Assembly: GCF_900636965.1 (NCBI RefSeq) | Contig: NZ_LR134331.1 | Span: forward strand, 2,170,001-2,234,000 | DNA: 64,000 nucleotides | DNA from: Lacticaseibacillus rhamnosus | Lineage (GTDB): Bacteria > Bacillota > Bacilli > Lactobacillales > Lactobacillaceae | Reading direction: 5' to 3' | Made by a program: the position numbers and the translations under genes | The notes under the pieces: generated by a model | The model's input: only the letters and a program-made list of their open reading frames with translations | Told to the model about the DNA's origin: nothing | The model's database searches: none | In this document: piece by piece, positions 44,940-48,655 of the stretch | Numbering within the stretch: the stretch's first letter is position 1 | Layout of the letters: every line of letters begins with the position of its first letter

Positions 44940-45983
44940 TTAGTCGTAATGCAAGGCATAGTCTTCCGACACCTGATAGTGCAGTGTTTTGGTAAATAGC
45001 AAATTGCTAAGATAAGCCAGTCCAATCGGCAAGATGAAGAAAATGATCGTCAATTCAAGCACATTTCCCACCGTCACCGCCTTCATTGCATCGAGTGCAG
45101 CGAGTGGCCCGACTAAACCAGAAAAGCCAAATCCGGCACTGGCAGGCGTTCCTTGAATGTGCAATGCAGCACCGATACCACCAAGAATGCCGGCATTAAG
45201 CGCCATGGGTAAGAAGAGTTTCGGTTTAGACAAAATGTTGGCCATTTGCATCTTCGGCGAGCCCAGAAAATGTGCCAGCGAGGTCCCAAGCGGATTCGCT
45301 TTCCAGCCATAAGCCGCCAGCGCAAAACTTGCCCCGACAATGCCAAGGTTAGCAGATCCGGCACCGATGCCGTTCAACATAATAGCCGTCGCAATCCCCA
45401 CTGTACTGATCGGCGTCACAATCAAAATGGCAAAGATGATCCCCATCAAAACGCCCATCGCAATCGGCTGCAATTCGGTAATATCATGGACAACAACGCC
45501 AATATACTTCGTGATTCCGGAAACCGGCTTGAGAGTGAGCATCCCCACCCCACCTGCAATCAGCAATACTAACGATGGAATCAGAAGAATCGTGTACGCC
45601 TTGAGCGCATTGCCCAACAATAGAATGACTAAATAGCCAATGGCGAGGGTGATCGCCAAATTAATCACATCCCCGGTTCCGGCAACACTCAAGCCGGTTT
45701 TGGTCAGATGATAATTACCGGCACCAATAATGGCAGCCAGTGCCAGCGAACTTGTTTGAATCGGCGTAAACTTCGCCAGCATCCCCACGCACACAGCCGA
45801 TAACGCCGGTAACAAGGTCATCGCGGCGGTCGTCATATACGTGACAACGGCCAACTGTGGAAAGCTAGGTAAAAGCAACTTGACGAGCGCATTTAAGATC
45901 GCTCCAGGAACCAAGGCAACAATAATCCCCACTGATAAACCGTTTAAAATGTTCATCGTCACGGTTTTTACATCTTGTTTCAT
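44940..45983 (-). CDS. PTS EIIC-type permease homologue without other PTS domains
   Basis: 347 residues from ATG 45983 (CGGAGGAAG upstream). Nine to ten helices with glycine-rich loops, resembling the PTS_EIIC_2 family of stand-alone membrane proteins (GAGNYHLTKTGLSVAGTGDV, GVGMLTLKPVSGITKYIGVV). No EIIA or EIIB domain nearby, so phosphoryl-coupled transport is doubtful. It lies 13 bases after a D-2-hydroxyacid dehydrogenase gene on the same strand, so it may carry a metabolite of that enzyme (inference). Confidence 0.7.
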   Translation of the reverse strand: MKQDVKTVTMNILNGLSVGIIVALVPGAILNALVKLLLPSFPQLAVVTYMTTAAMTLLPALSAVCVGMLAKFTPIQTSSLALAAIIGAGNYHLTKTGLSVAGTGDVINLAITLAIGYLVILLLGNALKAYTILLIPSLVLLIAGGVGMLTLKPVSGITKYIGVVVHDITELQPIAMGVLMGIIFAILIVTPISTVGIATAIMLNGIGAGSANLGIVGASFALAAYGWKANPLGTSLAHFLGSPKMQMANILSKPKLFLPMALNAGILGGIGAALHIQGTPASAGFGFSGLVGPLAALDAMKAVTVGNVLELTIIFFILPIGLAYLSNLLFTKTLHYQVSEDYALHYD

Positions 45984-45996
45984 CGTCTTCCTCCGT

Positions 45997-46989
45997 TTAA
46001 TTAACTTGGTGCGGTGAATGCCCACCGGCTAAAATAGTTTTGACGTCATCCAATGAAATATCGATCATGTTTTTCACGGCTGCATCCGTATAAAAACCGA
46101 TATGCGGAGAAATCTCAACGTTCGGCAAAGCCTTTAAAGTTTCAAGATTGGTATTGTCCACGCCGGATTGGCTGCGATCAACCCCAAAAATACCGGCTTC
46201 ACCTTCAATTGTGTCCAAAGCAGCGCCGGCAATCTCACCACGTTGCAGCGCCTCAATCAAAGCAGCCGTATCGACAATCGGTCCGCGGGCTGCATTGATC
46301 AAGTAAGCCGTCTTTTTCATCTTTTTGAAGGCGGCAGCATCAAGCATATGGGTGGTGATGTCGTCCAGCGGTGTGTGCACGGTGACGATATCGGCAGTGG
46401 CCAGCAAGGTGTCAAGATCGACATAACGAACCGTATCCGCCAATTCAGGTCGCGTTACCGGATCAGCCACGATGACGGTAGATCCTAAGGCGCGAAAAAT
46501 GCGGGCGACGGTACTGCCGATTTTGCCAGCGCCAATGATGCCAATCGTTAATTGATGAACTTCCTGCGCTTCCAGACCACCCCAGCTATAATCATCTTTG
46601 GCTTCGCGCGCCGTAGCCTCACCCAAATGGCGAATCAATCGCATGGCATGAGCCAAAACCAGTTCCGCAACCGATCGCGGCGAGTATGCGGGCACATTGG
46701 TCACGGCCAATCCATTGGCAGCCGCAGCATCGAGATTAACAATGTCATAGCCGGTAATCCGCAAAGTCAACTGCTTCATCCCGAATGACTTCAACTTCTG
46801 ATAAACAAGCGGTTCTGGAATGGCGCCATGCTGTTGAATGACAACCCCATCGTAGCCCTTAGCCAGATCAACCGTATCAGCATTGAAGGCAACGGTATTG
46901 GTATCAACTTGAATATCATTAGCAGCAACCCAGTCATCAATCGCTGGTTGTTCGTCTGGTCGAACACTATACATTAAAATTTTCTTCAT
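45997..46989 (-). CDS. D-2-hydroxyacid dehydrogenase (D-lactate dehydrogenase-like)
   Basis: 330 residues. I choose the third of three consecutive ATG codons (46989), seven bases after AGGAG. NAD-binding TIGIIGAGKIGSTVARIF; catalytic Arg in INAARGPIVD, Glu in DTIEGEAGIFG and His in ISPHIGFYT. It is a relative of D-lactate and D-2-hydroxyisocaproate dehydrogenases; the substrate range is not fixed by sequence. Next to an aromatic-type aminotransferase it could reduce phenylpyruvate or indolepyruvate to the hydroxy acid (inference). Confidence 0.85.
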   Translation of the reverse strand: MKKILMYSVRPDEQPAIDDWVAANDIQVDTNTVAFNADTVDLAKGYDGVVIQQHGAIPEPLVYQKLKSFGMKQLTLRITGYDIVNLDAAAANGLAVTNVPAYSPRSVAELVLAHAMRLIRHLGEATAREAKDDYSWGGLEAQEVHQLTIGIIGAGKIGSTVARIFRALGSTVIVADPVTRPELADTVRYVDLDTLLATADIVTVHTPLDDITTHMLDAAAFKKMKKTAYLINAARGPIVDTAALIEALQRGEIAGAALDTIEGEAGIFGVDRSQSGVDNTNLETLKALPNVEISPHIGFYTDAAVKNMIDISLDDVKTILAGGHSPHQVN

Positions 46990-47037
46990 CATCATTCTCC
47001 TTTGAGCGCGTTATCGTCCAACTGCAAACCTGCCTAC

Positions 47038-48201
47038 CTAATGCGTTGCCATAAACTGCTTAATGCGCTCAGCCGCCAGTTTCAAATCCGCCATCGAGGC
47101 CGCATACGAAATCCGCACATAACCTTCACCGCCTGGCCCAAAACTGGCACCGGGAATCACGGCAACCTTTGCTTCACGTGCCAACGCATAAACAAACTTC
47201 CAGCTGTCATGGAACCGGTCTGGCAACTTAGCAAAAATATAAAATGCGCCATCCGGATGAGGAACTTCCAAGCCGGCTTCCGGTAAGGCCTTCATCAGAA
47301 AATCACGCCGTTTTCGATAGGCTTGCTTCATCGGCTGACTATCTTCCATACCATTTTTTAACGCCTCTTCAGCCGCGCGCTGGGCATTGGTGGTGACGCT
47401 GGTAATCGTAAACTCGCTAACCTTGCCGATTTGTTGAATAATCGCAGCCGGACCTGCTGTGATCCCAACGCGCCAGCCGGTCATTGCGTGGGATTTTGAA
47501 ACCCCGTTAAGGACAATTGCTTGATCAGGGAGTATCTCGCCCATCGAAACATGCGTCCCACTGTAGGTCAATTCTGAGTAAATCTCATCGCTTAAGACAA
47601 AAATTTCATACTGCTTGATGACGTTGGCTAATGCGCTCAGATCCGCGCGATTATAAGTCACCCCAGTTGGATTAGTCGGGTAGTTAAGAATCACCGCTTT
47701 AACCGTGTCCCGATTGGCTTCAATCGCCTGTTGTAATTTCTCTGGCTTAAGAATGAACCCATCCGCCGAAGTGTCGATAAATATTGGTTTTGCTCCGTTT
47801 AATAACACGATTGGGATGTATAAAGGAAAAATCGGAGTTGGGATAATCACGGTATCGCCTTTGTTCAACATAGCCGTTAAACTCGAATAAATACCGCCAG
47901 TGGCCCCAGCTGTGATCAAAATCTGCGTCTCCGGATCATAGGAGGTTTTATATTTCGTTGCCAGATAATGGCTTGCCGCAGCTCGTAATCCCGGCAAGCC
48001 TTTGCTCTGGGTATAATGGCTCTCATCATTTTCGATTGATTGGATGCCCGCCGCCTTGACATGCTCCGGCGTCGGAAAATCCGGTTCACCTAATGTCAGC
48101 TTAACAATCCCTTCAATACCGCTAATTTCTGCATTGAATTGTAAAATATCGCTCGGTTTGAGTTGCCGAACCTCGTGATTCATACGATCGACTAATGCCA
48201 T
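47038..48201 (-). CDS. class I aminotransferase, probably aromatic amino acid
   Basis: 387 residues, fold-type I PLP enzyme. PLP lysine in NGVSKSHAMTGWRVG; AGATGGIYSSL phosphate region; ILNYPTNPTGVTYN; substrate-carboxylate Arg in YVRISYAAS. It resembles AraT and PatA. Aromatic specificity is supported by an upstream leader peptide rich in Phe, Tyr and Trp, not by active-site reading. ATG 48201 has GGAGGG upstream. It transaminates to alpha-keto acids, which the dehydrogenase encoded about 50 bases downstream could reduce. Confidence 0.82.
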   Translation of the reverse strand: MALVDRMNHEVRQLKPSDILQFNAEISGIEGIVKLTLGEPDFPTPEHVKAAGIQSIENDESHYTQSKGLPGLRAAASHYLATKYKTSYDPETQILITAGATGGIYSSLTAMLNKGDTVIIPTPIFPLYIPIVLLNGAKPIFIDTSADGFILKPEKLQQAIEANRDTVKAVILNYPTNPTGVTYNRADLSALANVIKQYEIFVLSDEIYSELTYSGTHVSMGEILPDQAIVLNGVSKSHAMTGWRVGITAGPAAIIQQIGKVSEFTITSVTTNAQRAAEEALKNGMEDSQPMKQAYRKRRDFLMKALPEAGLEVPHPDGAFYIFAKLPDRFHDSWKFVYALAREAKVAVIPGASFGPGGEGYVRISYAASMADLKLAAERIKQFMATH

Positions 48202-48240
48202 GTAAATCCCTCCATCTTTTTACATCCAGTAAGTTGAAAC

Positions 48241-48279
48241 TAAAATAAAAGCCCCGCAGTCATCGATTGACCGCGGGGC
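48241..48279 (-). terminator. attenuator terminator upstream of the aminotransferase gene
   Basis: On the minus strand, GCCCCGCGGTCA pairs with TGACTGCGGGGC, followed by TTTTATTTTA. It lies between the leader peptide and the aminotransferase start, about 40 bases before the ATG. Confidence 0.88.
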
Positions 48280-48413
48280 ACGAAATGGGAATGATTCTCC
48301 TGATTCCAGCCACACAGTCAATTGCTTGATCTGTGTGACCGCTCACTCAAAGGTAACTGGTCTCACAGATCGCGTCTGAAAAACCAGAAATAAAATGATT
48401 GGCTACCTTGAGT
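48251..48413 (-). promoter_or_regulatory. attenuator pairing segments (antiterminator region)
   Basis: In transcript order: segment 2 (48371-48359, GATCTGTGAGACC, containing the leader stop codon) pairs with segment 3 (48340-48328, GGTCACACAGATC). Segment 3 (48337-48326, CACACAGATCAA) alternatively pairs with segment 4 (48321-48311, TTGACTGTGTG). Segment 4 (48322-48309, ATTGACTGTGTGGC) alternatively pairs with the 5' half of the terminator (48279-48266, GCCCCGCGGTCAAT). An early stem ACTCAAGGTA (48413-48404) with TACCTTTGAGT (48355-48345) also forms. This is the order of a classical ribosome-controlled attenuator. Confidence 0.75.
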
Positions 48414-48428
48414 CAGCTTTGTCATCAT
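48363..48428 (-). CDS. leader peptide with aromatic codon run
   Basis: A 21-codon frame from ATG 48428 to TGA 48365-48363, with AGGAGG eight bases before the ATG. The C-terminal part reads SFYFWFFRRDL: four Phe, one Tyr and one Trp within six codons. No T-box motif is present. The peptide probably has no function of its own; a ribosome slowed at these codons when charged aromatic tRNAs are scarce would change downstream pairing and let transcription continue into the aminotransferase gene. Confidence 0.8.
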   Translation of the reverse strand: MMTKLTQGSQSFYFWFFRRDL

Positions 48429-48460
48429 GATGAGAACCTCCTAAGAAATAGATTAGTTAA

Positions 48461-48489
48461 AGACTACTGGTTAACGGACGGTTTGTCAA
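48461..48489 (-). promoter_or_regulatory. promoter of the leader-aminotransferase transcript
   Basis: On the minus strand: consensus -35 TTGACA (48489-48484), 17-base spacer, -10 TAGTCT (48466-48461). The leader ATG follows about 33 bases later. Confidence 0.75.
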
Positions 48490-48655
48490 CCGGAACTGAA
48501 CTGATTTTTTTGCGGGACGAATTTGCCATTTAGGTTCACTACAATGGGTCGCCATCACGTCACCGGCAAGTTACTAACTCACTTTTTCAGAGGAAAATGA
48601 ACGCATTTTGGCAATGGAATACGCTACAATGAAGACAATCAAGAAAGGGGCTTTA

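Follow-up and report, generated by a model that had tools for sequence, protein, structure and literature searches.

The minus strand of a 64,000-nt stretch of Lacticaseibacillus rhamnosus DNA (NZ_LR134331.1, 2,170,001 to 2,234,000; hereafter the window, with positions counted from its first letter) carries, ahead of an aromatic-type aminotransferase gene, a leader that is very probably a ribosome-mediated transcription attenuator of his-operon topology, in which starvation would lead to read-through. This reading draws on the anatomy of the leader, its conservation, compensatory base changes and gene context, from which ribosome stalling and the direction of the response are deduced. A promoter, an AGGAGG, a 21-codon leader frame, a series of pairing segments and a terminator had been proposed in an initial annotation of the sequence, and each was recovered in its place. 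On the minus strand, to which all of the following features belong, the promoter comprises a TTGACA -35 element (48484..48489) and, across a 17-nt spacer, a weak TAGTCT -10 element (48461..48466), which is missing from the promoter scan because it shares just three of six bases with the consensus. Promoter-like matches of at least 9/12 were present within the 95 nt upstream of 64 of 76 leaders, against 21.9 expected from mononucleotide shuffles. The Shine-Dalgarno AGGAGG (48437..48442) precedes the leader peptide ORF MMTKLTQGSQSFYFWFFRRDL (48363..48428; 21 codons plus TGA), which ends FYFWFFRRDL and includes six aromatic regulatory codons, F-Y-F-W-F-F (48378..48395), recognized from the sequence and from run composition over 170 leader candidates, whose 93 'other' rows include the chance finds L229, L230 and L240 and the wrong frames L212, L264 and L265. 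Segment A (48376..48413), made up of the aromatic and upstream codons, pairs with segment B' (48345..48361), and segment B (48359..48371), within which the leader stop codon lies (TGA, 48365-48363) exactly as had been claimed, pairs with C (48328..48340). C pairs with either B or D, and D (48310..48322), the antiterminator strand, with either C or E (48266..48278), the 5' arm of an intrinsic terminator hairpin E:F (48251..48279) followed by a T tract (48241..48250) at which attenuated RNA is expected to end. B, C and D are the segments that had been numbered 2, 3 and 4. A and B' were placed by folding and covariation, and B, C, D and E by pairing energies and covariation, with a terminator scan contributing to E; the hairpin was placed by the terminator scan and covariation.

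The exclusive pairings originally described (2 with 3, 3 with 4, and 4 with the terminator arm) are real as judged by duplex energies, with B:C, C:D and D:E reaching -17.3, -11.3 and -14.6 kcal/mol in the window, energies matched by 0, 54 and 3 of 5000 shuffled partners, respectively. Folding of the 215-nt leader yielded -85.4 kcal/mol; its shuffles averaged -54.6 (z -8.1), and 0/200 did as well. The A:B' helix, which was absent from the initial annotation, is part of the untranslated default fold and, aligned as in the family model, includes two non-standard pairs in the window sequence. Scanning the window against Rfam returned no family at its gathering score, and the T-box, correctly reported as lacking, did not appear even as a weak match to the leader (E <= 5). 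The best sub-threshold match, to RF04312 'trpB', lay over C:D and E:F and scored 27.2 bits across the full model against a cut-off of 59.

These pairings define an off state, composed of A:B', C:D and E:F, and an on state, composed of B:C and D:E, between which the position of the ribosome would decide. Without translation, C would pair with D, the terminator E:F would form and the RNA would end near 48241. Once the peptide is completed, a ribosome resting on the stop codon would cover B, leading to C:D, then E:F and termination. Were charged Phe, Tyr or Trp tRNA in short supply, the ribosome would instead stall at one of the six codons, opening A:B' and leaving B free to take C; D, thus released, would take E, the terminator would be prevented and transcription would enter the aminotransferase operon. 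A footprint model discriminated these states in the window's own genus when the RNA ends at D: in 5/5 leaders (four distinct sequences), D was free at 0.64-0.86 when the ribosome was stalled but at 0.01-0.02 when it stood on the stop codon or was absent. Over 43 leaders, mean D freedom was 0.46 when stalled, 0.26 at the stop codon and 0.24 without a ribosome, and stalling freed D by more than 0.2 in 18 of the 43, including 13 of 38 outside the genus; accessibility fell by more than 0.2 in three (L069, L074 and L107). The modelled set leaves out 23 Lactiplantibacillus-type leaders, seven named loci, L073 and three leaders in which D could not be placed. Full-length equilibrium folding paired E with F almost regardless of leader and state (mean 0.95-0.97) and did not discriminate the states, and before F exists E still paired upstream at the stop codon in 39/47 leaders. 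Since equilibrium folds favour the terminator and fewer than half of the leaders free D by more than 0.2 upon stalling, the decision must be kinetic, as it is in classical attenuators.

Conservation of the aromatic codons and covariation of the segments in relatives had been put forward as checks on the attenuator, and both were observed. Among 397 Lactobacillaceae genomes, 96 contained orthologous aminotransferase loci (E <= 1e-140; 97 loci), of which 77, spread over several genera, possessed an aromatic leader ORF and 19 had none within 700 nt upstream by the peptide patterns used; the remaining locus (L055) is cut by a contig end, and a matching leader from the same genome (L241) ends another contig. 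Phe, Tyr and Trp were all represented in 72 of these 77 araT leader peptides, the other five being without Trp, and a terminator-like hairpin was called in 76, a few in poor register. The alignments (A1 and A2) leave out nine of the 77 leaders, namely the duplicates L010 and L086, and L050, L054, L073, L075, L076, L120 and L131 on account of the terminator call or a cut start; L129 is left out of the model alignment A3. Searching DNA with a degenerate YFW[FY]F pattern proved too noisy for use, with matches in 285/397 genomes and, among 31 loci inspected, clear leaders at L132-L134 only (L132 from a separate search), and a contig search for related loci gave five.

Compensatory changes were found in the mutually exclusive helices across 46 leaders from several genera. 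In the terminated structure (A:B', C:D and E:F), 92.5% of cells were paired, compared with 33-46% in slid controls, 23 of 33 pairs had changed on both sides, and 0/500 shuffles reached any measure; A:B' was paired in 95.7% of cells and E:F in 91.4%, the latter with 13 of 14 pairs changed on both sides. For the read-through structure, B:C and D:E were paired in 95.1% and 88.2% of cells (slid controls 31-42% for the whole structure), and cells paired, cells changed on both sides and the covariation score beat all 500 shuffles, with pairs changed on both sides reached by 38/500 and pair types by 173/500. The pairings were also kept in 22 Lactiplantibacillus-type leaders (96.9% and 92.4%), a set in which read-through pairing is nearly invariant and no covariation was detected for B:C and D:E. 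Three leaders have exchanged the Trp codon for Arg (TGG to CGG) together with its B' partner (CCA to CCG). As the regulatory codons form one strand of A:B' and change with B', the peptide and the RNA evolve jointly, which calls for caution in reading conservation of the peptide by itself. By eye, the stop codon stands at the 5' side of B in other genera, compared with its position inside B in the window. A possible stem between the leader Shine-Dalgarno and the 'TQLN' codons received partial support, with 83.5% and 65.1% of cells paired.

A covariance model of segments A to D (R1) gave 147 matches (E <= 0.01) in 116 of the 397 Lactobacillaceae genomes; for 72 of these matches, an orthologue followed on the same strand within 900 nt. 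All 75 others were inspected, using reference proteins for first-gene assignment that were chosen after the first 40 match loci had been seen. An aromatic-metabolism enzyme was the first recognized gene in 57 (AraT paralogue, n = 19; AroE, n = 14; transketolase, n = 14; DAHP synthase, n = 10) and a homologue of one of the two further genes of the window operon in 13 (PTS_EIIC_2, n = 11; 2-hydroxyacid dehydrogenase, n = 2); one preceded an unassigned protein of ~180 residues, and four had no recognized gene, of which L241 is the leader at a contig end and L229, L230 and L283 look like chance. Outside Lactobacillaceae but within the order, there were 20 matches in 19 genomes, most of them weak, and the first gene of the 18 with a recognized one encoded the ~180-residue protein (n = 11), DAHP synthase (n = 3), AroE (n = 2), AraT (n = 1) or a TrpX-type protein (n = 1); L240 is probably a chance match, and L287 runs into a contig end. 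Within the sequence retrieved, DAHP synthase came next in 10 of the 11 loci with the ~180-residue protein (L232-L234, L236, L286, L288-L290, L292, L293 and L295), which in these other families stands between the leader and DAHP synthase, and the one representative scanned had no significant Pfam match. Domain scans of representatives supported the DAHP synthase, transketolase, TrpX-type protein, PTS_EIIC_2, AroE and AroB assignments. Within a class-wide sample, under stricter filters (E <= 0.005), 2 of 299 genomes matched, our own and one other Lactobacillales genome. Two genomes of the same genus that have no orthologue (loci L227 and L228) keep the segments before the dehydrogenase and PTS_EIIC_2 genes, and in their leader peptides, MIKILKSNLHVAFSFAFRQ and MIKMLKSNLHVAFSFAFRQ, Phe is by eye the sole aromatic residue. 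Genome G294 has two strong leader copies, one at AraT (L076) and one at PTS_EIIC_2 (L211, peptide ..NFWFWFFDN).

In the window, the first gene behind the leader (47038..48201, minus strand; ATG at 48201) encodes an aminotransferase whose best NCBIfam match, at 544 bits and thus below the cut-off of 576, is NF005588/PRK07309, which we take to be an aromatic aminotransferase family. From this gene, we infer that the operon extends on the same strand to a D-2-hydroxyacid dehydrogenase identified by domain scan (45997..46995) and a PTS_EIIC_2 membrane protein (44940..46025), homologues of which stand directly behind the leader at L211-L215 and L217. The host genome gave no match to DAHP synthase model PF00793 (positive control in 11/14 genomes) or PF01474 (positive control in 2/14 genomes). 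Given this lack of a detectable DAHP synthase, the role of the operon may lie in salvage or transamination and not in de novo synthesis, and the benefit of the switch to the host would be indirect; possibly, aromatic 2-oxo and 2-hydroxy acids are converted back to amino acids under shortage.

Gene content also bears on an improbable reading of opposite sign, in which a high level of an aromatic amino acid stalls the ribosome and induces a catabolic operon, as in TnaC, an arrest-peptide switch. An aminotransferase and a 2-hydroxyacid dehydrogenase presumably make up an operon of the type making aromatic lactates, and the window operon could be catabolic in this sense; likewise, leaders of different genes, Trp and Phe/Tyr ones alike, repeatedly show 'QLN' or 'INR' ahead of the run, a recurrence that plain codon counting would not call for and that pairing with the leader Shine-Dalgarno explains in part at most. 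Against an arrest peptide, however, the same leader type precedes biosynthetic DAHP synthase, AroB, AroE and transketolase genes, as well as TrpX-type and TrpB genes, and a set comprising shikimate enzymes, transketolase, TrpX-type transporters and TrpB fits with starvation switching expression on. Moreover, the Trp position is occupied in different leaders by W, Y, S, F, R, L or G (in rough register), and a ribosome arrested on the stop codon would mask B, an outcome that, given the pairings, promotes termination.

Leaders before aro and transketolase genes add two helices, B0:C0 and C0:D0, between the stop codon and the core, giving eight segments, an extension by two that is expected to leave the sign of the switch unaltered. 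The eight-segment alignment (A4) comprises 29 leaders from 41 loci considered, 12 being left out, and had 92.4% and 93.0% of cells paired in its two conformations (slid controls 28-51%). For B0:C0, 93.4% of cells were paired and both sides had changed in 5 of 10 pairs; for A:B' in the aro and transketolase set, pairing extended to 100% of cells, and 3 of 9 pairs had so changed. Pair types were reached by 67/500 shuffles in the first conformation and by 121/500 in the second, for which pairs changed on both sides were reached by 14/500.

The trpB motif matched below threshold in the window has been ranked a strong riboswitch candidate, found mostly before an uncharacterized ABC transporter, although a classic attenuator was left open as an alternative by those who described it (PMC11109978). 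Searching 173 Lactobacillales genomes with RF04312 gave 122 matches, with 103 genomes matching at E <= 0.001 and 38 over the cut-off. In each of the 50 loci inspected of these 122 (L298-L347; 30 listed and 20 hand-chosen, mostly lower-ranking), a Shine-Dalgarno-preceded short ORF ended within 45 nt of the motif, and 48 of these ORFs contained Trp and 34 W..W; at random anchors in the same loci (n = 9023), the corresponding values were 8.2%, 3.0% and 0.16%. The Trp patterns were set after the first 30 loci had been seen, and Trp was present in 18 of the later 20. Pairing of the stop region with the first arm of the motif, equivalent to B:C, beat 95% of shuffles in 46 of the 50 loci, with mean energies of -14.2 kcal/mol for native, -10.3 for partner-swapped and -6.0 for shuffled sequences. 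The first downstream ORF was TrpX-like (blastp to L235) in 44 of the 50, and a domain scan identified TrpB downstream at L303 and L308; L235 (314 bits) and L328 (316 bits) fall below the TrpX model cut-off of 390. L328 is the host's own second leader (G000:C1:685413-685517, outside the window), which precedes a TrpX-like substrate-binding protein and has the Tyr-rich peptide MRQRKTTQLIHAYYYGYFG, suggesting that the substrate of this protein may be Tyr rather than Trp. Judged by sequence and pairing, the trpB-motif loci appear to represent a Trp-codon attenuator, of which the motif would be the C:D and E:F half.

Even less likely than an arrest peptide is a reading in which the ORF is incidental and the window leader, in line with the proposal made for the trpB motif, acts as a metabolite riboswitch or is bound by a protein. 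The leader RNA is highly structured, as such a reading would have it, and the strong ranking given to the motif (PMC11109978) speaks in the same direction. Nevertheless, the amino acids of the ORF track the gene, with Trp in the trpB-motif leaders and Phe, Tyr and Trp in the araT leaders at the frequencies given above, and B contains the stop codon in the window; in the eight-segment and trpB-motif leaders inspected by eye, the stop codon falls at or beside the equivalent segment. Least credible of all is a plain terminator with chance hairpins, or a T-box: terminator-like sites do exceed shuffles in the region (10 versus 4.3 expected), yet the gene upstream of the leader starts at 48608 on the plus strand so that none reads toward this terminator, the fold stands well apart from its shuffles (z as above), the pairings are conserved and no T-box matched in the window, at the 20 loci without a pattern-found leader or at 18 other loci.

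A second Rfam family, RF02863 'Enterococcus sRNA 2410', matched AroE leaders above its cut-off of 61 bits (L294, 88.5 bits; L239, 70.1) and a TrpX-type leader just under it (L235, 59.4), and was absent among the matches of the window leader at E <= 5. Although filed as an sRNA, RF02863 matches leaders of the AroE and TrpX types, and the 'sRNA' would thus most simply be an attenuated leader RNA. The main text of a 2011 paper on Enterococcus sRNAs does not mention sRNA 2410 (PMC3166299).

The his operon attenuator of enteric bacteria alternates between A:B, C:D and E:F and the alternative B:C and D:E, and the window leader shares its six segments, two alternative antiterminator helices and run of regulatory codons, but differs in amino acids, phylum and sequence, and in the eight-segment version found in the Lactobacillales set. 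In the enteric trp and pheA attenuators, too, the position of the ribosome at aromatic codons decides termination; there, however, the antiterminator blocks the terminator arm directly within four segments, whereas the window leader is a helix relay. Thus, of the enteric trp/phe logic invoked in the initial annotation, ribosome-mediated attenuation is supported comparatively, and the topology is of the six-segment his type rather than the four-segment trp type. T-boxes sense tRNA directly, without an ORF, and bring about starvation-induced read-through of amino-acid genes in Firmicutes; the window leader differs in having no T-box match. With the RF04312 motif the window shares the P1 hairpin and terminator, equivalent to C:D and E:F, and aligns over all 107 positions, but its score is far below the cut-off and the motif is presented as a riboswitch candidate (PMC11109978). 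Other leader-peptide attenuators of Firmicutes, Bacillus hisS*/hisZ (PMC2965389) and Staphylococcus aureus ilv (PMC5794164), and the Acholeplasma aroF leader uORFC-13-1 (PMC8632094), are likewise portrayed in the relevant passages as an amino-acid-specific leader ORF with a terminator, but differ in lineage or in the genes and amino acids concerned, and those passages include no aromatic gene set. Titles and abstract openings in the open-licence PMC literature yielded, where searched, no description of this aromatic leader set in Lactobacillales, and the main text of a 2013 study of lactic acid bacterial regulons makes no mention of aromatic, attenuation, leader peptide, T-box, araT or shikimate (PMC3616900).

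Overall, we consider it likely that these leaders form one Lactobacillales attenuator superfamily, with a Phe/Tyr/Trp version before araT, shikimate, transketolase and PTS_EIIC_2 genes and a Trp version before trpX-type and trpB genes, which would explain the trpB motif and, by match, sRNA 2410, in which the chain grew from six to eight segments with its sign unchanged, and in which leader residues predict the amino acid of the transporter. Classical ribosome-mediated attenuation would then act over aromatic genes in lactic acid bacteria, a group in which T-boxes are the form of control to expect, and a testable mechanism is offered for two orphan Rfam families, RF04312 and RF02863. An attenuator chain could accordingly gain two segments with no change of sign, and leader peptides may allow transporter specificity to be assigned. 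Aromatic lactates, which an operon of the window's type could produce, are of importance to food and gut microbiology.
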